Virus record (IMG/VR): IMGVR_UViG_3300030102_003092
Location: 1 to 43,575 of that record
Reading direction: 5' to 3' (one strand)
DNA length: 43,575 nucleotides
Origin: a virus
Every line of letters begins with the position of its first letter. Within the stretch, counting starts at the first letter, position 1. Below the pieces are notes generated by a model. That model did no database searches and was not told where the DNA came from. It saw only the letters and a program-made list of their open reading frames with translations. The translations under genes were made by a program, and so were the position numbers. This document shows, in pieces, positions 9,601-36,605 of the stretch.

Positions 9601-11403
9601 TTAGTTTCGATCGAGATCGAATCCATTTGTCAATCCAGAATTATCTGATGCATCTTTAGAAATTGTAGGATTAGCGTCTAATGCGGTATGATTAGTTTGA
9701 CTAGTACTGTTATTATCTCCTCCAACAATTACTGGAGATCCATTTGCGGCGTTTTGTTCTATAGCTGCTTTTAATTCAATAATACCATCTGATAATGTTT
9801 GATTTCTCATTATTAATCTATCTAATTGTCTAAATTTATCTTCGCCTATTTCTCTTCCAGCTCCTATTTGTGCAGCTATTCTATCAAATCTGTCTTGAGA
9901 AAATTTAGTTATTTCACCAGACAAAACCTTATCATAAAACTGTTGATCTACTGCACTTAATCCTCTACCGGATCTATTAACCATTCCTTCTAAATCTTTT
10001 TGCAAAGTTTTTATTATTTTTTTGTTATCGTACTTTTCAATATTCATACTTTTTAAAGATAATTCTTCTGCAGTTTTTTCTTCTTTTTTAAACGGATTAA
10101 AGAAATTAATTAATGCTTTAAAGAAATTTTTAATCATTCCTTTTATTGAATTAAATGTTTCTTTTGCAACTCCAACCGGATCTTTTACAAATTCAACAAG
10201 TTTTTCAAATACTTTAAATGGAAAACCAACAATCGATTTAATTAAATCAACAAAGCTAAAGTCTTCAACGTATTTTAATATTGCGCCGGAATATGTTGAT
10301 TCGTCAATTTCACCAGTTTCTTTATTAACGCCAATACCTAAAAACTTTAATAGTTTTACAAATCCTGTTTTAATAAGATCTAATGGAGCTCCAAGAAAAT
10401 CACCGATAAAAGCCTTTAATGCTTCTTTTGTTTTTTCATAAGTGCTGCCTTCAGTTTTAATAAATGTATCAAAAGCTGTAAATGCTGAAAACAATATACC
10501 CAAAGGCCATAATATTCTACCAGCTAGTCTAAGTACGCCACCAGTGGCTTTTCCTACCGGGCCAGCAACAGCGCCAACTCCTGTTAATCCGAATTGTCCT
10601 AAAAATTTAAGAGTCTTTGCGAAAGGACCTGCTATATATTTTTCTATGCCAGTTGCAATAACACGTATTGGATATAGTAAAGTATTAATTCCTCTCATAA
10701 ATCTATTTGCAATATTAATAGGCGCTGCTTTAAATTTACCAGAAGCACTATCTTTTACTACCATTTTAGATCCATCTGGATTTAATCCCATTGAAAACAT
10801 TAAATTAGCAAGTAATCCTGCTTTAACAGATTTTAATCCATTTAATATTTGAGTTGTTAATGGTGTTTTTAAACCACTACCTGGTTGATTAAATTTTTTT
10901 AATGTTAAATCAAATCCTAAAAATTTTAAAATATTAAATTTTAATCTTGATAGTTTAAATGTTATGTATTTTGTAAAAGATCCAAATGCGCCAAATGATA
11001 ATATATCAAGAACTTTTGGAATTAAAGTAACTGGAAAAAACATCAACGCTTTACTTAAACTTTTAATATTTTTTAAAGCTGACACCTCCCAACCTCTTAA
11101 TCCAGATATAGCAGCTGTTACTGCGCCTATACTTGCAAGAATACCACTTAATCCTAATAATGGTGGAAGATCAATTTTTTTACCAGGACTTGATTTTATT
11201 TTATTTGTATTTCGACTTGTTTCGCGAGAAGATTCAAGTTTATCCATAGCAATTGCTTCAAGAGATCTTTGCATTCCTTTAAATATATTAGTCATCGTGG
11301 TTTGAAGCATTGCAACTTGATCGTTCAAAAATGCTAATTGAACAGTATTTTTATCCTGATTCTTTTGAAGTTGATTTATTACGCCTTTTAAATCGTCAGC
11401 CAT
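9601..11403 (-). CDS. Probable tail tape-measure protein (gp29-like by position)
   Basis: A 600-residue protein, close to T4 gp29 (590). It has an N-terminal helical/coiled-coil region (1-60), then long stretches of hydrophobic, glycine-rich helix (LPPLLGLSGILASIGAVTAAISGL; FLGQFGLTGVGAVAGPVGKATGG; RILWPLGILFSAFTAF) alternating with amphipathic helix. This composition is typical of tape-measure proteins, which set tail length and enter the host membrane on injection. It directly follows gp26 plus its frameshift extension, the same order as lambda G-GT-H. The ATG overlaps the end of that extension by 8 nt. Detailed homology to gp29 cannot be shown by eye. Confidence 0.7.
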   Translation of the reverse strand: MADDLKGVINQLQKNQDKNTVQLAFLNDQVAMLQTTMTNIFKGMQRSLEAIAMDKLESSRETSRNTNKIKSSPGKKIDLPPLLGLSGILASIGAVTAAISGLRGWEVSALKNIKSLSKALMFFPVTLIPKVLDILSFGAFGSFTKYITFKLSRLKFNILKFLGFDLTLKKFNQPGSGLKTPLTTQILNGLKSVKAGLLANLMFSMGLNPDGSKMVVKDSASGKFKAAPINIANRFMRGINTLLYPIRVIATGIEKYIAGPFAKTLKFLGQFGLTGVGAVAGPVGKATGGVLRLAGRILWPLGILFSAFTAFDTFIKTEGSTYEKTKEALKAFIGDFLGAPLDLIKTGFVKLLKFLGIGVNKETGEIDESTYSGAILKYVEDFSFVDLIKSIVGFPFKVFEKLVEFVKDPVGVAKETFNSIKGMIKNFFKALINFFNPFKKEEKTAEELSLKSMNIEKYDNKKIIKTLQKDLEGMVNRSGRGLSAVDQQFYDKVLSGEITKFSQDRFDRIAAQIGAGREIGEDKFRQLDRLIMRNQTLSDGIIELKAAIEQNAANGSPVIVGGDNNSTSQTNHTALDANPTISKDASDNSGLTNGFDLDRN

Positions 11404-11583
11404 TTTTAGTTGTCTCTTGTCTTAATTTTTCTTCTTTTAAATGTTGTTCTAATAATGATAAATAAATCTCTCTTTCGTATGGGATCATTTCCTCTATCTC
11501 AGTAAGTGAATAATGATAATGATGAAGCAAAAGAAAATTTGTTTTATAATAATTTTCTAAACTCTCATGAGATAGAGCTAACC
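11396..11583 (-). CDS. Frameshift extension of gp26 (gp51/GT-like tail chaperone segment)
   Basis: No start codon lies near the beginning of this open frame, yet it encodes a clearly protein-like stretch. Read in the -1 frame after the TTTTTTA slip site, it gives RLALSHESLENYYK..., then LLLHHYHYSLTEIEEMIPYE, REIYLSLLEQHLKEEK and a stop at 11396. The motif 'hh-y-l-EIE-MIP-ERE-Y--LL--HL-EE' resembles small ORFs annotated as gp51 or tail-assembly chaperone after gene 26 in T4-type phages. About 62 residues would be added to gp26. It fills the apparent 174-nt gap between gp26 and the tape measure. An internal ATG (EEMIP) could give only a 28-residue product. Confidence 0.7.
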
Positions 11584-12291
11584 TAAAAAATTTGAGACGC
11601 CCTCCACTACTTGTTTATTCTTATGTCCACAACTTACACAATCAAATTCTAAAGTATGTTGTAGCTTTGGTATATTTTCAATAAAATCTCTTACCTTTCC
11701 AAATTGACTAGAATTCATAGATTCCATAAACTCTTGTAATTCTCGTTTGCTAACCTCTTTTAAATTTATTCTTTCGTCATCGGTTATAATTGTTTTAAAA
11801 CAACTTTGCATTACTACAAAAATTTGATCAGCAGTTGGAGTATCACCCATTACGACGTCTGATCCAATTAAATCATTAAAACTAGGCCAATCTACTTCCA
11901 ATGTTATACTATCGTCTAATTTAATTGTTTTATTAACTTCAGGTATATGTATTTTTATATCATCAAGTCTAACATCAATTTCATTTTGTGTTTTACATTC
12001 TGAACACTCTAAACTTACTTTTGCAGTTTCTCCGACACTTTTTGATCTTATTTGTAAAAACATATATTCAATATCAAAAGATGTTAATTGATGTATTTTT
12101 ACTTCATCTTTTACACAACTTCTAATTGTATCTAAAAGAGAAGAAAAGACAACTCTATTGTCTTTTGATTCCATTGCAGTTAACAATGTTTTTTCTTCTT
12201 TCATTAAAAAAGGTCGATATCGAACTTCTTTATTCATTGATGGTATAATCATATTATAATTTACATCATTATTCAATCTTGGTAAAGCCAT
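11578..12291 (-). CDS. 26: gp26 baseplate hub / tail assembly protein
   Basis: A 237-residue protein of the T4 gp26 family (T4 gp26 is 208). Visible family features are an N-terminal VRYRPFLMKEEKTLLTAMES, a central SFDIEYMFLQIRSKSVGE, and two CxxC pairs (Cys96/Cys99 and Cys218/Cys221) that should form a zinc ribbon. In T4, gp26 is needed for hub assembly and has been compared with lambda gpG tail chaperones. The stop follows a perfect slippery heptamer, so a minor fusion product of about 300 residues is expected. GGAG precedes the ATG. It lies between a tube-like protein and the tape measure. Confidence 0.88.
   Translation of the reverse strand: MALPRLNNDVNYNMIIPSMNKEVRYRPFLMKEEKTLLTAMESKDNRVVFSSLLDTIRSCVKDEVKIHQLTSFDIEYMFLQIRSKSVGETAKVSLECSECKTQNEIDVRLDDIKIHIPEVNKTIKLDDSITLEVDWPSFNDLIGSDVVMGDTPTADQIFVVMQSCFKTIITDDERINLKEVSKRELQEFMESMNSSQFGKVRDFIENIPKLQHTLEFDCVSCGHKNKQVVEGVSNFLG
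11584..11590 (-). promoter_or_regulatory. Programmed -1 frameshift site U_UUU_UUA
   Basis: On the minus strand the last gp26 codons are AAT TTT TTA GGT TAG. The heptamer T_TTT_TTA is in the zero frame required for tandem slippage and is preceded by A_AAT_TTT, a second slippery pattern. The gp26 stop is 3 nt after the heptamer. A short CTCT...AGAG hairpin begins about 6 nt downstream. Confidence 0.7.
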
Positions 12292-12299
12292 AATTTCTC

Positions 12300-12944
12300 C
12301 TATAATTTAAAACTAATTTGAGAGTTTCCATTTCTCTTAAAATTAGTATACGACATTTGAATATTCAACTCAACAAATGCGTCTGGTTGATTATTAAATT
12401 CTATTGCACTAATCGTAGTAGGAAATGCGTCTATTAATTCTACTGAATATACAGATCTTCCGACGTTAATTCCAGATTTTGCGGTAAGTGAATTTAAAAA
12501 ATTTGTGACATCGATACCGATAGGTAATGAACCTACTTGAATATCAAAAGCTGTTCTTGGTATTGAATTACTCAATTGATGGATGACGACTTTAGCTTGA
12601 TAAGAATTTTTATAATTTGCTATTTGTCGATCTTCGTTGATTATAAAATCTTTCCATCTATCAAAATATCTTTTTACGTAATAATCGTTAGTTAATAAAA
12701 AAGTTAATGACACATCATCAACTGCATATCCGTATGCTATCTTTTCAAACTCCATACCGATTCGTCTATCTGTAGTTAATATTTGTTTACTTGGTATTGA
12801 AGCATTTGTACATAAAATATTTAATGGATCACTTGCTCGGCTAAATCCTGGTAAAGATGGTAATTCAACAAGAAAATTATTTGGTCTTGCAATGCCACCA
12901 CGTGATGCTACTGTACTTTTAAGATTATCTATTGATGCTACCAT
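12300..12944 (-). CDS. Tail-tube-family protein (gp19/gp54-like)
   Basis: A 214-residue protein: GGIARPNNFLVELP near residue 16, CTNASIPSKQILTTDRRIGMEFEKIAYGYAVDDVSLTFLLTNDYYVKRYFDRWKDFI in pieces across 45-100, and a C-terminal VELNIQMSYTNFKR. This is the pattern of the gp19 tail-tube fold, which T4 also uses in gp54, the tube initiator, and gp48. Placement among hub and tape-measure genes favours a gp54-like initiator or hub-tube adaptor rather than the main tube protein, but the distinction cannot be made by eye. Its stop shares one base region with the neighbouring ATG, so it is coupled to the gp2-like gene. Confidence 0.7.
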   Translation of the reverse strand: MVASIDNLKSTVASRGGIARPNNFLVELPSLPGFSRASDPLNILCTNASIPSKQILTTDRRIGMEFEKIAYGYAVDDVSLTFLLTNDYYVKRYFDRWKDFIINEDRQIANYKNSYQAKVVIHQLSNSIPRTAFDIQVGSLPIGIDVTNFLNSLTAKSGINVGRSVYSVELIDAFPTTISAIEFNNQPDAFVELNIQMSYTNFKRNGNSQISFKL

Positions 12945-13513
12945 TATAATCCACCATATAGTTTTCTTGAATCTTTGTATACTTTATTTGCACTTGCACC
13001 TCTCCAATCTGCCATCGGTAAAAAAGTTGCAATTTCCCATTCTGGTTTTTCAACAAGTGCAAATCGACTTTTAACGTGTGCAGTTAGATAATGTTTTAAT
13101 GCAGGTTTTAAAAACTTTTCGGGTATCTTACCGCCATTTCCAAGCACAACGTCTAACATCTTTGCTCTTAATACCGGTGGTAAGTAATGTAAGTTAACTC
13201 CTTTAAATCCGCCTTTAGCCGGTCCCATCATAATTACTAATGGAAACCCATCAAAGTATGGTAATGTTGCTTTATGTTTTGCATCATAATAATACATGTA
13301 CATATTACCGATAGGCGATGCAGATCGATCAGGTCTGCTTTTTAAACTTAATGCATCATCTTGCATGATATCTCTACGATTATTAATAGTTCTACCACGA
13401 AATAATTGTCTCGCTTTTTGACTAAACCAACGAATAGATTCTTTCGTTCGCGGTGTAATACCAGCGCGAAACGCTTCTATCTCCATTTGTCTAAATAAAC
13501 TTTCTCCAGCCAT
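12944..13513 (-). CDS. Probable gp2-like DNA end protector / head-completion protein
   Basis: A 189-residue protein with a basic N-terminal helical region (to about 65), then IGNMYMYYYDAKHKATLPYFDGFPLVIMM, GFKGVNLHYLPPVLRAKMLDVV and a C-terminal EWEIATFLPMADWRGASANKVYKDSR. I associate this conserved set with T4-superfamily proteins annotated as gp2 DNA end protector. T4 also places gene 2 next to gene 4, as here. The gp2 assignment is moderate; that it is a conserved T4-type structural gene is much surer. A late promoter lies 5 nt before the ATG, predicting a leaderless late mRNA. Confidence 0.6.
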   Translation of the reverse strand: MAGESLFRQMEIEAFRAGITPRTKESIRWFSQKARQLFRGRTINNRRDIMQDDALSLKSRPDRSASPIGNMYMYYYDAKHKATLPYFDGFPLVIMMGPAKGGFKGVNLHYLPPVLRAKMLDVVLGNGGKIPEKFLKPALKHYLTAHVKSRFALVEKPEWEIATFLPMADWRGASANKVYKDSRKLYGGL

Positions 13514-13518
13514 ATCGT

Positions 13519-13526
13519 TATTTATA
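13519..13526 (-). promoter_or_regulatory. T4-type late promoter TATAAATA (minus strand)
   Basis: TATTTATA on the plus strand is TATAAATA on the minus. Only 5 nt separate the box from the ATG at 13513, so the expected +1 is the A of that ATG. Confidence 0.75.
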
Positions 13527-13527
13527 A

Positions 13528-14025
13528 TTATTTTTTACGTTTTCTTCGATATGGTCTAAATCGTTTTAACGGTTTCAATTTACCAGGCATTGCCTTTGGT
13601 AACAATCCCATTTCTTGTAATGTTTTTTCTGTCCATATTTGAAACTCCCAACCGCGATCTTTACAAAAAGTTTCTGCTGCTTCCCACTTATTCATATTTT
13701 TAACGTATGTAAAACCTTCTACGATATATTTCTTCGTGCGTTTAGGACCGGTCGGTGGTGAAGTTTGATCTTCTGGTTTAATCTCAACTAACACTGTTTT
13801 ATCTTCAAATACTATTTTTATATCAGGAAAATACTTGTGATAACGTTTATCTGCTTCATAATAATACGGTATTATGATTTCTTCTGATGACCATTGTTTT
13901 ACGTTAGGATTTTCATCGCACCATTTGAATACATGTCTTTCCCATAAAGAACGATAAATGATATTATCAAAATCACCTTTATACTTCTTAATGTTCTTTA
14001 CTTTAAACTTGCCAGAATATGCCAT
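13528..14025 (-). CDS. 4: gp4 head completion protein
   Basis: A 165-residue protein matching T4 gp4 (about 150): FKVKNIKKYKGDFDNIIYRSLWE, then VKQWSSEEIIIPYYYEADKRYHKYFPD, then TVLVEIKPEDQT and the C-terminal WEAAETFCKDRGWEFQIWTEK. T4 has the same SSEEIIIPY and VEIKP-type core. The core resembles a nuclease fold (E, D, ExK), and gp4 caps the filled head before tail joining. The extreme C-terminus is Lys/Arg-rich. It is transcribed from the minus-strand late box at 14051-14058. Confidence 0.92.
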   Translation of the reverse strand: MAYSGKFKVKNIKKYKGDFDNIIYRSLWERHVFKWCDENPNVKQWSSEEIIIPYYYEADKRYHKYFPDIKIVFEDKTVLVEIKPEDQTSPPTGPKRTKKYIVEGFTYVKNMNKWEAAETFCKDRGWEFQIWTEKTLQEMGLLPKAMPGKLKPLKRFRPYRRKRKK

Positions 14026-14032
14026 AATTTGA

Positions 14033-14040
14033 TATAAATA
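14033..14040 (+). promoter_or_regulatory. T4-type late promoter TATAAATA driving gp48 operon
   Basis: Exact box; predicted +1 near 14046, with the gp48 ATG at 14071. It is interlocked with an opposing late box at 14051-14058. Confidence 0.8.
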
Positions 14041-14070: not shown

Positions 14071-15174
14071 ATGCCAGAACCGGGTATAAACACAATTAAT
14101 TTAGGTAATCCATTTAGCTATGGCGGTGGAGCAGTAAAGTTTCCAATTGACACTCATGCACAAGTTGGATCACAGATTGTATTTCAAGCTATAAGAATAG
14201 AAGCTCCTGAAGCACCGATTAAATTTACTTCTAGTAGTACATTTAAAGATATATTTCAAAATCCGGGCGAATCAGCCTTAGATACCGTTGATCTTCTCAC
14301 ATCAAGTCTTAAAAATGCTAAAGGTCAAAAAATATTTCCTATAGCCAATAATAGGGTACAACTGTATTTACCTATATCATTTCAAGTTAATGATGCATTT
14401 CAATACGATAATGCTGCTTTAGGCGCAGTAGGTGGTGCAATTGCCAATGTGCTACAAGGAAATTCCGCAAGTGGAACAGTCGGTGGCGCATTAGCAAATG
14501 CTTTGGGTGCAGGTGCAGCATCTTTAAAAGATTTCTTTTTTGGTGGTGCATATACTGGTGAAGCCGGTAGAATTGCCGCAGCAGTAGGTGCAGGTGCGAT
14601 TAACTTCGCATCTCTCGGTATGGGAGCAGGCATCTCAGATGCGATTCAATTAACTGCAAGAGTTACAATTAATCCAAATTTAAGAACTAAGTTTAACGGT
14701 GTTGCAATTCGAGAATTTGCATTTCAATTTAAATTTATACCTAAGAGTCAAAGAGAATCTGCGGCTATAAAACAGATTATTAAATTTTTTAGATTTCACG
14801 CATATCCAGATGAAATACCGGGCGGTGGTCAATTTCCTATTGCATTAGAATATCCGAATTTATTTAAAATAAAATTAAAAAGTCAAGTCGGAGGTAGATT
14901 TCGAAATGTTGGAACTCCAATTAAATATTGCTATCTTAGAAATATATCAACAGTCTATAATCCTACTAGTCCTGTTTTACATCCAGATGGTGCACCTAAT
15001 GAAATTGATTTAAATTTAAGTTTTACAGAATACAAAACTCTATCTCGTCAAGATATTGTCAATGAAGATAATGACGCTGCATTTGACGCAGAAAATGAGT
15101 TAAATTTAAGTAATGAACAAATTAGGGATATTGTTATAGATTCTCTAGATCCCGATGATAATGTAGGAGTTTGA
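14071..15174 (+). CDS. 48: gp48 baseplate tail-tube cap
   Basis: A 367-residue protein, nearly the length of T4 gp48 (364). The C-terminal half carries the tube-like signature (LTARVTINPNLRTKF, REFAFQFKFIPKSQRESAAI, FFRFHAYPDE, YCYLRNISTVYNP). The centre (about 112-190) is an unusually Gly/Ala-rich, hydrophobic insertion. gp48 sits on the hub/wedge junction and starts tube polymerisation with gp54. It is the first gene of the plus-strand baseplate operon, read from the late box at 14033, with gp53 one base downstream. Confidence 0.78.
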   Translation: MPEPGINTINLGNPFSYGGGAVKFPIDTHAQVGSQIVFQAIRIEAPEAPIKFTSSSTFKDIFQNPGESALDTVDLLTSSLKNAKGQKIFPIANNRVQLYLPISFQVNDAFQYDNAALGAVGGAIANVLQGNSASGTVGGALANALGAGAASLKDFFFGGAYTGEAGRIAAAVGAGAINFASLGMGAGISDAIQLTARVTINPNLRTKFNGVAIREFAFQFKFIPKSQRESAAIKQIIKFFRFHAYPDEIPGGGQFPIALEYPNLFKIKLKSQVGGRFRNVGTPIKYCYLRNISTVYNPTSPVLHPDGAPNEIDLNLSFTEYKTLSRQDIVNEDNDAAFDAENELNLSNEQIRDIVIDSLDPDDNVGV

Positions 15175-17346: not shown

Positions 17347-19218
17347 ATGAGTTTTTATGGAGATAATTCTCGTTGGTTTATTGGAGAAGTTAAAAGTATT
17401 AGCGATCCGATTAGAATGGGTCGCGTTAAAGTTCGTATATTTGGTGTACATGCAGATGACGAACAACTTATGCCTGATGATAAATTACCGTGGGCTCAAG
17501 TTTTAGCACCAGTAACAGAAGGTGGAACTCCTAATCAAGGTAATTTTTTGGGTATACAACCGACAGCGAGAGTATTTGGTGTATTTCTTGATGGAACAAA
17601 TTCACAAATGCCTCTTGTTCTAGGATCTATACCTCATAGTGAAAAATGGGTATCAAAAGGCGGTATTCAATCTCATGTTACAACAGATATTAATGCGCAG
17701 AGTTTAACGAATGAAGTGCAAGATGGATATGTTCAAGATGATGCAGAAGCATTTGACGAAACAATAGTAAAGCATGAAGTATTCGATCATGAAACAAAAA
17801 AACAAGAAACAGAAGGAATAGATGAACCCTTACAAACAAATGTAAGAAAAAACGTTTATCCAAATAATAAAGTTAAAAGAACCACGAGTGGTCATGTTAT
17901 TGAGATTGATGATACGCCTGGTGCAGAAAGATTGCATGTGGTACATAAAACTGGAACATCGATTGAAATACAACCTAGCGGTGATGTTGTAACTCATCAT
18001 AAAAATGGTTTAAGAACAGTCGTAGGCGATGATAGATTAAAAGTTACAGGTAACGTTGAATGGGTTGTCAATGGTAATCTTGATATATCTGTATTACAAA
18101 ATATCAATCTTATGTCTGCCGGCAATTTACAGGTTATTACAACTGGTAGACAAGATTATCACTCGCACGGGAACATGTCGCATTTTTCTAAAGGACAACA
18201 TACACTTGCTAGTGAAACAGCAATTTTATCTGGAACAACAAAAGCAGATATAAGAGGAGCAAGAGTTGATCTTGCGACTAATGATCCGGTGACTGTTGCT
18301 CTTGAAAGCTTTAAATTAAGAGGAGTAGAATCTCCGGCATTTGCAACTGCAGGTGGCATGGTAAATACACCGGTTGACGATAATGGAAATTCATTAGGTC
18401 CGACTGATCCAGATGCAGGTCCGATGTCGCCTGGTTCTACAGATCTTGGACCTCCAGGTGATTGTACAAGAAAAAATATAGGAGCATCATCTGCAATAGG
18501 TGAATCAAATAACGATCCAGGAGCAATTAGTAGTAGAGAACAACAAAATACAGATGGCTTTTCTTATGGTACATATCAAATATCTACAAAGGTTGGTAGA
18601 ATGCAAGAGTTTATTGACGCTTTAAATAATCCTAATGGATTGGGTGGTAGAGATCCTAAGTATTTAGAATACGGTAGAAGATTAAACGAAGCCGGAGGTA
18701 ATTCAGCAGCAGCAAATAGAACTACATTATTTGAAAGAACTTGGAAAGAAATGGCTTATGATAATCCAAGTGATGGAAGTTCTTTTGCTCAAGCACAACA
18801 TGATTTTATACAAGCAACACATTATGATGTTGCAGTAGAAAAACTCAAAGCTGCAACTGGTATCGATCCATGTGCAAGAAATAGAAGTAACGGATTGCAA
18901 GATGCAATATGGAGCACCTCGGTTCAACACGGCCCGCATGCAGTTACAGGTATTGTAAAGAACGCGCTTGCAAGAACTGGTAAAACGGCTGAAACTGTAA
19001 CTGATGCAGAATTAATTTCAGCAATATACGATGAACGCATGTCAGATAATGGATTTACTTATTTTCACGGATCAACCCCTGGCATCAGAAAAAACATAGT
19101 TAAAAGATTTAAAAGAGAAAAACTTCTAGTTTTGCAAGAAGCAGATAAAACATTAGAAAATTTAGCTACTGAAACAGCTTCGAGTACTGCAAGTGTAAAA
19201 GGATTTTATGGTGGATAA
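17347..19218 (+). CDS. 5: gp5-like spike with OB domain, beta-helix and C-terminal lysozyme-like domain
   Basis: A 623-residue protein. Residues 1-100 are the gp5 OB domain: WFIGEVKSISDPIRMGRVKVRIFGVH then KLPWAQVLAP, matching the T4 gp5 N-terminus. Residues about 185-330 are short repeating strands (VEWVVNGNLDISV, INLMSAGNLQVIT) forming the membrane-piercing beta-helix. After a Pro/Gly linker (about 340-375) comes a lytic domain: IGESNNDPGAISSREQQNTDGFSYGTYQIS, then a C-terminal AIWSTSVQHGPHA. That is the pattern of VgrG-associated/phage muramidase-like domains, with a Glu in the ES-N-PG motif as candidate catalyst. T4 has its lysozyme between OB and helix; here it is moved to the C-terminus. 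GGTGGAG precedes the start. Confidence 0.88.
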   Translation: MSFYGDNSRWFIGEVKSISDPIRMGRVKVRIFGVHADDEQLMPDDKLPWAQVLAPVTEGGTPNQGNFLGIQPTARVFGVFLDGTNSQMPLVLGSIPHSEKWVSKGGIQSHVTTDINAQSLTNEVQDGYVQDDAEAFDETIVKHEVFDHETKKQETEGIDEPLQTNVRKNVYPNNKVKRTTSGHVIEIDDTPGAERLHVVHKTGTSIEIQPSGDVVTHHKNGLRTVVGDDRLKVTGNVEWVVNGNLDISVLQNINLMSAGNLQVITTGRQDYHSHGNMSHFSKGQHTLASETAILSGTTKADIRGARVDLATNDPVTVALESFKLRGVESPAFATAGGMVNTPVDDNGNSLGPTDPDAGPMSPGSTDLGPPGDCTRKNIGASSAIGESNNDPGAISSREQQNTDGFSYGTYQISTKVGRMQEFIDALNNPNGLGGRDPKYLEYGRRLNEAGGNSAAANRTTLFERTWKEMAYDNPSDGSSFAQAQHDFIQATHYDVAVEKLKAATGIDPCARNRSNGLQDAIWSTSVQHGPHAVTGIVKNALARTGKTAETVTDAELISAIYDERMSDNGFTYFHGSTPGIRKNIVKRFKREKLLVLQEADKTLENLATETASSTASVKGFYGG

Positions 19219-19535
19219 TGCCAGAAATATGTAGACAAGATGATACTTTAAATACCGGTCATGCATGCGATGCAACATCAACTCTTGCTGCGCCTGGTCA
19301 AACTAAAGTATATGCAGAAAATAAATTAGTTGCACGTAAAGGAGATAATACTAATAGTCATAATACTCAAACTGGTACTGATGAAGATGGAGATCCGATA
19401 TGTACACCACATACTGCATCAATAAGTGGTAGTTCATCTAAAGTTTACGTAGTTGGTGAATTAGTTGCAAGAGTTGGAGATGCAGTAGATGCCGGTACTT
19501 TAACGTCTGGATCTTCAAAAGTCTTTGCTGGTTAG
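19218..19535 (+). CDS. 5.4: PAAR-family spike tip protein (gp5.4-like)
   Basis: A 105-residue PAAR-domain protein, like T4 gp5.4 (97). It shows the two pseudo-repeats TKVYAENKLVARKGD and SKVYVVGELVARVGD. Likely metal ligands are His15 (TGHAC), His48 (NSHN), Cys62 and His65 (CTPH), consistent with the His/His/Cys/His metal site known from PAAR tips. It would cap the gp5 beta-helix as a sharp cone. It overlaps the gp5 stop by one base, and a late promoter follows directly after its stop. Confidence 0.88.
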   Translation: MPEICRQDDTLNTGHACDATSTLAAPGQTKVYAENKLVARKGDNTNSHNTQTGTDEDGDPICTPHTASISGSSSKVYVVGELVARVGDAVDAGTLTSGSSKVFAG

Positions 19536-19543
19536 TATAAATA
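19536..19543 (+). promoter_or_regulatory. T4-type late promoter TATAAATAC before the Cys-rich gene
   Basis: TATAAATA followed by C, the T4 consensus, one base after the PAAR stop codon. Predicted +1 is near 19549, with AAAGGAG before the ATG at 19565. Confidence 0.82.
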
Positions 19544-19564
19544 CAAGTTAAAAGGAGAAAGTTA

Positions 19565-19687
19565 ATGTCGTGCACATGCAACGGAAAATGCAAAAAGTGT
19601 AATCATGACTGTCATTGTGAAAAACAATGTGAAGAGTGTGTTAATGATGTTTGTACTGGTTGTGAATGTGAAAAGTGTAATTGTTAA
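19565..19687 (+). CDS. Metallothionein-like cysteine-rich peptide
   Basis: A 40-codon ORF reading MSCTCNGKCKKCNHDCHCEK in its first half and ending TGCECEKCNC. It has 13 Cys and 2 His in 40 residues, arranged as repeated CxC, CxxC and CxxxC, with Lys/Glu/Asn between and no aromatic residue. That composition is characteristic of metallothioneins or compact zinc/copper clusters. It has a strong AAAGGAG site, its own late promoter, and its stop overlaps the gp25 start (TAATG), so translation of gp25 may depend on it. A virion or assembly metal-donor role is inference. Confidence 0.8.
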   Translation: MSCTCNGKCKKCNHDCHCEKQCEECVNDVCTGCECEKCNC

Positions 19688-20127
19688 TGCCTAGAGTTTT
19701 TTCACAAGAAGACGGTGGTTTAGATAACGCAGCCATAGTTACAAGCCGAAAGAAAGTCTATAAAGATATAGATCTTACTTTTGCTGTGAGAACGATGGGT
19801 GATGTTTTTAAAAAAACAGATGCAGCATCAGTTAAACAAGCTGTAAAGAATTTGTTATTAACTAATCATTTTGAAAAACCCTTTACACCTTTCTTTGGCG
19901 GCAATTTGCACTCTTTCTTGTTTGAAAACATTGAAGATTTAGACGAAATGGAAATTATGGATCATGTAAGTGCTGCGATAAACAATTACGAACCAAGAGC
20001 AATTATGAGATCACTACAAGCTAAGGCGCGACCTGATAATAATTCTATAGAATTAATTATAAGATTCCAAATTATTAACACATTTGAAAACGTAGAATTA
20101 AATGTAGAACTTACGAGGTTAAGATAA
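19687..20127 (+). CDS. 25: gp25 baseplate wedge subunit
   Basis: A 146-residue protein (T4 gp25 is 132). The ATG at 19687 overlaps the Cys-rich gene's stop; a TTG at 19681 in frame is not preferred. The family pattern is KVYKDIDLTFAVRTMGDVFKKTDAASVKQAVKNLLLTNHFEKPFTPFFGGNLHSFLFEN in order, then the C-terminal beta pair IELIIRFQIINTFENVELNVEL. gp25 is the universal contractile-system wedge protein that nucleates the sheath at the baseplate. It shares one base with the gp6 gene. Confidence 0.93.
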   Translation: MPRVFSQEDGGLDNAAIVTSRKKVYKDIDLTFAVRTMGDVFKKTDAASVKQAVKNLLLTNHFEKPFTPFFGGNLHSFLFENIEDLDEMEIMDHVSAAINNYEPRAIMRSLQAKARPDNNSIELIIRFQIINTFENVELNVELTRLR

Positions 20128-34765: not shown

Positions 34766-35400
34766 AAATATATTGTGTAAGTATAGGTGAAAAATATGGA
34801 CCAGAGTTTGAGAAATATTTAGAAAATAAACTTGGTACAATAATTTGGATACGAGATCAAATAGCTCCTAACGTTCCATTGCAATGGAATAAAATGTACC
34901 CGATGTCTTTAAGTGATACCGAACCTGTTTGTGTAATTGATTTAGACATTGTTTTAGAAAATGATTACATGGATTTATTTAATTATCCAATAGAAAGAGG
35001 TGAGTTTTTATCAATTCATGGTTGGTGGAGAGATGCGCCGGGTTATACATTAAATGGTGGATTTTTTAAATACTATCCGATTGACTGTAACTACATATAT
35101 GAAAAGTTTATGTCTGATATTGAAAAATGGAAAGTACATTATATTAAAAATAAAACTACAATCGGTCCAGTAAACGGCGAACAATATTTTGTAGAAGATA
35201 GTGTTAATGAAAAATTAAAATTAAAACTTGCGCCTGCAAGTTGGGTTACAAGATGGAAAAACGATTACAGTCATATATGGTTTGAAGAATTAACAAAGAA
35301 ATATATAGATGCATCAGGAGAAGATTATCTTAAAAAAGATGATTGGAATCCTAATATAAAACTAGTTCATTATAATCACACATTAAATAAACCACAATGA
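34762..35400 (+). CDS. GT-A-like glycosyltransferase (DLD motif)
   Basis: A 212-residue protein: MKIYCVSIGEKYGPEFEKYL start, PVCVIDLDIVLENDYMDLF with D60-L61-D62 as the DxD-type site, and NGGFFKYYPIDCNYIYEKF downstream. It is distantly like the 32666 product, and both are close in length, so the two may be ancient paralogues. Coupled by ATGA overlaps to the genes on either side. Confidence 0.62.
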   Translation: MKIYCVSIGEKYGPEFEKYLENKLGTIIWIRDQIAPNVPLQWNKMYPMSLSDTEPVCVIDLDIVLENDYMDLFNYPIERGEFLSIHGWWRDAPGYTLNGGFFKYYPIDCNYIYEKFMSDIEKWKVHYIKNKTTIGPVNGEQYFVEDSVNEKLKLKLAPASWVTRWKNDYSHIWFEELTKKYIDASGEDYLKKDDWNPNIKLVHYNHTLNKPQ

Positions 35401-36605
35401 AATGTTTAGTACCAGATACTGGAATTACAATTAATCCGATAGGAGAGCTTGTATTATGCTGTGCAGCTGATCATGTTCCTATTGGTCATATTAAAGATAT
35501 AGACGATGTTTCTGATTTTTTTAATTCAAAAGTTTATAATGATTTAAGAAAAAAATTTAAATTAAAAGAATTTCCTAATCAATGCGATGTATGTAAAGTT
35601 CATTATGATGCAGGAAGAATAGCAAGATTTGATTCTTATAATAGAATCTTTAATTTTCCTACATATGAGCAGGACATTTCTAGTAAAACAATACCTATAC
35701 GTTATTTAGAAATTACTACAAGTAATATTTGTAATCAGATGTGTGTTACTTGTTCTGGTAAATATTCATCTAAATGGGCTCCATACGAACAGCATGCTAT
35801 TGATGTTGGATTAAAATGGAGAAATGAAAATCATAAGTTTCATACAGAAATTTATAAAATGACTGATAACGACGTTGATAAGATTTTAAAAATAGTTCCG
35901 CACCTACAACATTTAACAATAAAGGGTGGTGAGCCTTTTGCTGATCATAATAATATAAAGATACTAAAATTATTAGGAGAAACAAACCCTAAATGCCGTG
36001 TAGAGATATGTACTAACTTTCAATTAGTGACTAATACAGTTATTGATTTACTGCATAAAATAGAAGATGTTCATATACAAGCAAGCATCGATGGAACTTA
36101 TGCTTTATACGATTGGATTCGTGGTGGTAATTTTGAAAAAACAATCAACAATATCAATAGATATCATGCAGTAGAAGGAAGACAAGTTCTTCCGGCTGTA
36201 TGCATATCAATATACAATTGGATGAACATTGTTGAGCTAATAGATTTTTTTAAACCTATGAAGGCAGTTCCAATGGTTGGTCTTGCAAACTTAGTAACAT
36301 TTCCAAAGTATTGTTCACCACTATATTTGTATCCTCGACATATAAAAGAAGGCCTTGATAAATTTTATAATTATTTAAAGGGTTATAAAAAGATTACAGA
36401 AAAAAGTTACAAGTGTGACGACTTAATAATAAGTGGCGTCAATAATATTAAAAGTGTAAAATATACAGAAGATTTTTTAGGAAACGATGTTATACAAAAA
36501 CGCATGATAGAATGGATAGATTTTTGTTTAATTGCTCGTCAAAACAATGAAGACATATACGAATTAGCACCATATTTAAAAGAATATAATAATGCCAAGT
36601 CCTAG
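35397..36605 (+). CDS. Radical SAM enzyme with N-terminal SPASM-like cysteines
   Basis: A 402-residue protein. The radical SAM motif is CNQMCVTC (Cys112, Cys116, Cys119), which holds the [4Fe-4S] cluster that cleaves SAM; the GGEP motif for SAM binding is at 177-180 (LTIKGGEPF). Before the core there is an extra Cys set (Cys21, Cys22, Cys63, Cys66) in a NPIGELVLCC...CDVC context, like a SPASM/twitch cluster domain moved to the N-terminus. SPASM-type enzymes commonly modify peptides or sugars. The substrate is unknown. It overlaps the next radical SAM gene by 14 nt. Confidence 0.85.
   Translation: MKCLVPDTGITINPIGELVLCCAADHVPIGHIKDIDDVSDFFNSKVYNDLRKKFKLKEFPNQCDVCKVHYDAGRIARFDSYNRIFNFPTYEQDISSKTIPIRYLEITTSNICNQMCVTCSGKYSSKWAPYEQHAIDVGLKWRNENHKFHTEIYKMTDNDVDKILKIVPHLQHLTIKGGEPFADHNNIKILKLLGETNPKCRVEICTNFQLVTNTVIDLLHKIEDVHIQASIDGTYALYDWIRGGNFEKTINNINRYHAVEGRQVLPAVCISIYNWMNIVELIDFFKPMKAVPMVGLANLVTFPKYCSPLYLYPRHIKEGLDKFYNYLKGYKKITEKSYKCDDLIISGVNNIKSVKYTEDFLGNDVIQKRMIEWIDFCLIARQNNEDIYELAPYLKEYNNAKS

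Follow-up and report, generated by a model that had tools for sequence, protein, structure and literature searches.

The short open reading frame between the PAAR tip gene and gp25 in the window, by which we mean the whole stretch of 43,575 nucleotides that was analysed, is a genuine coding gene. Its product is probably a metallothionein-like peptide that forms a zinc- or copper-thiolate cluster, is carried by phages alone as mobile cargo and acts inside the infected cell rather than as a part of the tail.

Results

The gene (19565-19687, plus strand) is translated into the peptide MSCTCNGKCKKCNHDCHCEKQCEECVNDVCTGCECEKCNC, in which 13 of the 40 residues are Cys, two are His and none is aromatic. 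The Cys residues, one third of the total, are arranged in CxC and CxxC motifs with Lys beside Cys, which bears out the metallothionein-like composition that the earlier note had described. At the base composition of the window, 39 codons would by chance include 13 Cys or more with a probability of about 2e-11. AlphaFold2 returned no confident fold for the 40 residues (pLDDT 50). The gene stands among T4-type baseplate genes, with both direct neighbours on the plus strand: upstream is the gp5.4-like PAAR tip protein (19218-19535; Pfam PF05488, E 2.7e-6), whose stop codon occupies 19533-19535, and downstream is the baseplate wedge gp25 (19687-20127; Pfam PF04965, E 1.5e-11). The signals listed by the earlier note were all found in place on the same strand, namely a T4-type late promoter box TATAAATA (19536-19543) that begins 1 base 3' of the PAAR stop, a ribosome-binding site AAAAGGAGAA (19550-19559) with a good AAGGAG Shine-Dalgarno sequence upstream of the ATG, and a TAATG stop/start overlap of one base (19685-19689) that couples the peptide to gp25. 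A purine-rich GGAG-type site also precedes most of the homologues described below.

Other features of the window were recorded as well. A gp5-like hub protein whose C-terminal domain is VgrG3-like (PF21277, E 6e-35) is encoded at 17347-19218, and a hub gene and its adjoining genes on the minus strand (9601-14025) diverge from the baseplate operon, which starts at 14071; TATAAATA boxes lie on both strands between these divergent blocks, at 14033 and 14058. On the downstream side of the genes for the baseplate and tail fibres, a Radical-SAM domain protein is encoded (35397-36605; phrog_14086, E 1e-15).

A search of IMG/VR with gp25 gave 80 loci, of which the 12 nearest (gp25 76-100% identical) were taken as near relatives. 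The peptide was present between PAAR and gp25 in all 11 that had DNA upstream, while the twelfth contig begins at the last codons of the peptide; the same one-base TAATG overlap was found in L001-L003 and L005-L012. Among 18 homologues, the conserved Cys columns varied between TGT and TGC without a single replacement, and the pooled pN/pS was 0.25, a value drawn from short sequences whose synonymous sites are near saturation in distant pairs. This retention, the silent changes in the Cys codons and the low pN/pS mark the frame as a real gene under purifying selection. No peptide was found before gp25 in the relatives whose gp25 was at most 54% identical. Moreover, the peptide gene and its flanks diverge to different degrees. 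Between L003 and L009, the peptide gene is 89% identical, compared with 76% for PAAR and 80% for gp25, while between L009 and L011 the flanks are 90% identical and the peptide gene 78%. Such values indicate that peptide alleles are exchanged between phages within the PAAR-gp25 site.

The earlier note had assigned the late promoter to the peptide itself. The box is present, but it cannot be called the peptide's own. In relatives that lack the peptide, all 30 distinct regions upstream of gp25 carry ATAAATA, at 28-40 bp from the gp25 start, and 28 of the 30 have the full TATAAATA, compared with 1.3% in shuffles. In two empty sites, L088 and L090, TATAAATA comes after PAAR, and gp25 stands directly behind it. 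Although the count of the motif over the whole window was not above chance, its position before gp25 is conserved. Because the relatives without the peptide keep the box between PAAR and gp25, we assign it to the gp25 transcription unit and reject it as a promoter of the peptide. In the window, ATAAATA lies 28 bp 5' of the peptide gene instead, so the gene was most likely inserted between a pre-existing late promoter and gp25.

Viral metagenome contigs, which are fragments, were searched with a degenerate pattern and with a profile, the kind of metagenome search that the earlier note had proposed. Over 40 distinct peptides of one family came to light, 35-55 residues long with 9-14 Cys and distributed over 64 distinct flanking haplotypes. 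The PAAR-gp25 context accounts for 12 of these haplotypes, and in the lineage of the window the gene is upstream of gp25 in all members. Elsewhere, it is found between the baseplate hub and tape measure genes (L133 and its relatives), before the DNA polymerase gene gp43 (in two distinct phage lineages, of which one has hsp20 upstream), between ribonucleotide reductase and RusA, between the neck protein gp14 (head closure) and the tail sheath stabiliser gp15, and in several unnamed contexts. Since the same family stands beside DNA polymerase, ribonucleotide reductase, neck and hub genes, it is not tied to the baseplate. The copy in L133, between the tail-hub and tape-measure genes, is 88% identical to that of the window, while the PAAR of that contig is only 59% identical to the window's. 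The unrelated sites and this incongruence with the flanks identify the gene, on sequence grounds, as mobile cargo (a moron). One full copy per contig was found in each of the 11 long contigs tested. In a polymerase-region contig, the gene downstream of the peptide (L168:4237-4884) matched phrog_3704, which is labelled ferredoxin in PHROGs (E 1e-102).

In an alignment of 42 members, C9, C12, H17, C18, C22, C25, N27, C30, C33 and C35 (window numbering) are invariant, and nine of these ten positions (eight Cys and one His) are possible metal ligands. The window peptide and its family carry C-x3-C-x2-C-x-N-x2-C without a loop. Cys makes up 30-33% of the peptides in the group of the window and less in the longer members; the highest density is 14 Cys in 36 residues, and at the lower end of the size range, members of 35 residues carry 9 Cys and 2 His. 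Aromatic residues are absent from the locus group of the window and number 0-4 elsewhere, mostly outside the core.

No significant match to the family was found in Pfam, PHROG, NCBIfam or PDB, and the earlier note's remark that no T4-type baseplate gene of this kind is known agrees with the lack of any PHROG or Pfam match. The PDB matches that did appear (Dickkopf, a retroviral nucleocapsid and the RNA polymerase II zinc ribbon) were rejected as weak Cys-pattern matches, and no metallothionein was among them. The bacterial metallothionein model PF02069 gave no match in the phage record at E<=10 or in the Pfam scans at E<=1, while the control genomes, including Synechococcus elongatus, did respond. 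No phage-encoded metallothionein family was encountered in the protein libraries or the open-access literature searched, and the family is previously undescribed.

The nearest named phages to the window are Kyanoviridae at low identity, including the pelagiphage HTVC008M. A blastn search with two family members gave no real match. A tblastn search of cultured phages with the peptide likewise returned nothing, very likely an effect of the low-complexity filter on such a query, and does not count as absence. In the GTDB collection, a match was confirmed in one prokaryote genome, a Rhodobacteraceae metagenome bin (L305, FZLS01000007.1), in which two copies of the peptide lie on different contigs. 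The L305 contig is collinear with the viral contigs L200 and L201; it was therefore rejected as the site of a host gene and is probably a phage within the bin. With this, the family looks phage-specific within the collections searched.

Among 17 reference phage records, the profile matched only HTVC008M, weakly, and the other 16 gave no match. Tracing this one cultured-phage match led to a second, more widespread family with the pattern CxxCGHxxHC ... IEVCxxCxCxxC, seven Cys and two halves joined by a loop. The HTVC008M member (AGE60383.1; KC465899 30276-30398, L208:277-399) is encoded upstream of both PAAR (by three genes) and gp25 (by four). A member from Mosig with 8 Cys (QOI69074.1; MT647606 90375-90512, L224:2492-2629) has a PAAR/gp25 arrangement close to that of HTVC008M and, by its sequence, is intermediate between the two families. 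Together with L225-L304, these two make up a family of peptides of 45-57 residues, some longer, with C[KR]NCGH[DE]SHCG ... [IV]EVCKxCRCxxC, and many of them end in PDWG or TDWG. The sister family had no significant Pfam or PHROG match, only weak, sub-threshold matches to Pfam zinc ribbons. Both families come from marine phages, share the register CxxC(G)HxxHC ... CxxCxC(xxC) and, in the isolates HTVC008M and Mosig, the PAAR-gp25 neighbourhood. However, the sister peptides mostly have 7-8 Cys and an N-terminus without CxC, and a variable middle loop of 10-25 residues replaces the C-x2-C-x-N-D module; conversely, neither the window peptide nor its family shows the seven Cys with a long middle loop. 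The two profiles scored 49.2 in hhalign, whereas none of 100 composition-preserving column shuffles exceeded 18.0, and so they likely share ancestry. The two families also occur together in single genomes (L108 and L283 on contig 3300022074_000027; L177 and L288 on contig 3300020446_001892), in the first case as tandem metallothionein-like and zinc-ribbon-like genes beside ribonucleotide reductase.

Discussion

The peptide has two of the features that mark metallothioneins as a functional class: small size with about 25-35% Cys in CxC and CxxC motifs, and few or no aromatic residues. The third, the binding of several d10 metal ions in thiolate clusters, is predicted. Eukaryotic metallothioneins of vertebrates, plants and fungi likewise consist of about one third Cys, with Lys beside Cys and no aromatics. 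The likeness to them is one of composition only, however, as the peptide matches no Pfam metallothionein model and its metal cluster is putative. The bacterial SmtA/BmtA proteins (PF02069, Metallothio_Pro) are also small and rich in Cys with a few His, but the phage peptides differ from them in the order of the Cys as well as in the missing PF02069 match. SmtA binds 4 Zn (PMC10612145); with 9 Cys and 2 His in even the smallest phage members, a similar capacity is plausible by analogy.

Metal binding, its stoichiometry and the physiological role of the peptide are what we infer from these features. In the mechanism that we propose, the peptide would fold only around metal ions, and its 13 Cys and 2 His would probably form a metal-thiolate cluster with about four divalent ions (Zn2+) or several Cu+. 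The gene is mobile cargo of marine T4-like phages, inserted at many sites and, in the phage of the window, most likely between the late promoter and gp25. Because of this position, the peptide would share a transcript with gp25, be coupled to it in translation and appear late in infection. Most likely it would work in the cytoplasm of infected cells, where it may buffer or sequester zinc or copper and keep thiols reduced while host metalloproteins are degraded and phage metalloenzymes are produced. The family probably arose within phages, from the zinc-ribbon-like peptides or together with them. Against the metallothionein reading stands the fact that the peptide matches no known metallothionein family. 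Moreover, the metallothioneins that have been characterised mostly serve hosts under metal stress, and the peptide locus shows no sign of metal-responsive control. The members with 9 Cys and the sister family with 7 could be ordinary structural zinc proteins such as small regulators.

The main alternative is a small zinc-finger or zinc-ribbon protein with structural Cys, two to four Zn and a fixed fold, whose partner as a regulator or anti-defence factor would be a host protein, RNA polymerase or nucleic acid. We regard it as a serious but clearly less probable explanation. Phage proteins of very small size whose genes sit at variable sites often serve in host takeover, the homologous sister family looks like a zinc ribbon with its sub-threshold Pfam matches, and the core CxNDVCTGC is conserved more strictly than a pure buffer requires. 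Bacterial metallothioneins themselves, moreover, contain a zinc-finger fold (PMC10612145). However, a ribbon uses fewer Cys than the 14 that a member of 36 residues can contain, most members have no aromatic residues and AlphaFold2 yields no confident fold.

A thiol or redox buffer, or a scavenger of reactive oxygen during infection, for which metal binding would be secondary, is improbable. The high thiol content would suit it, and PmtA of Pseudomonas has been linked to oxidative stress (PMC11237414), but the conserved His, the Lys-Cys pairs and the CxC/CxxC spacing suggest metal clusters rather than free thiols.

From the place between the PAAR tip and gp25, the earlier note had suggested a metal donor for virion assembly, a redox buffer or a late protein that sequesters host metal. 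A donor or accessory factor for PAAR or another baseplate metal site would fit the constant place upstream of gp25 in the lineage of the window, which it shares with T4-type baseplate accessory genes (gp5.4-gp25), and the sister proteins of HTVC008M and Mosig also lie shortly upstream of PAAR and gp25. Both location and co-occurrence with PAAR fail across the family, however, and such a role is accordingly unlikely, slightly more so than the redox buffer. The peptide has no PHROG and its site varies, with members beside polymerase, reductase, neck or hub genes. The conserved presence and position of a T4-type baseplate gene are not seen either, given the direct PAAR-gp25 junction in L088 and L090, which have both genes and no peptide between them, and the 16 of 17 reference records that lack the peptide, the one match being the sister protein. 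Finally, a chance frame without function, as might be suspected of a short ORF spotted by eye, is scarcely credible in view of the Cys content, the retention in all 11 relatives, the pN/pS and above all the homologues conserved at unrelated loci, which refute it.

We return to the metallothionein-like cargo peptide as the preferred reading. A bolder form of it, which we put forward tentatively and as something rather less than an even prospect, is a virus-born metallothionein: a zinc-ribbon protein of marine T4-like phages may have given rise to a thiolate peptide for several metals, which these phages then passed around as exchangeable cargo to control the zinc or copper of ocean bacteria during infection. 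If this is true, the number of Cys, from 7 to 14, would record how a ribbon holding one or two zinc ions became a metal cluster. Should the peptides indeed bind several metal ions each, marine phages would possess a protein dedicated to handling metals, and the auxiliary genes of metal-poor oceans would gain a new class; intermediate sequences would then also allow the step from a zinc-ribbon-like peptide to a metallothionein to be followed.
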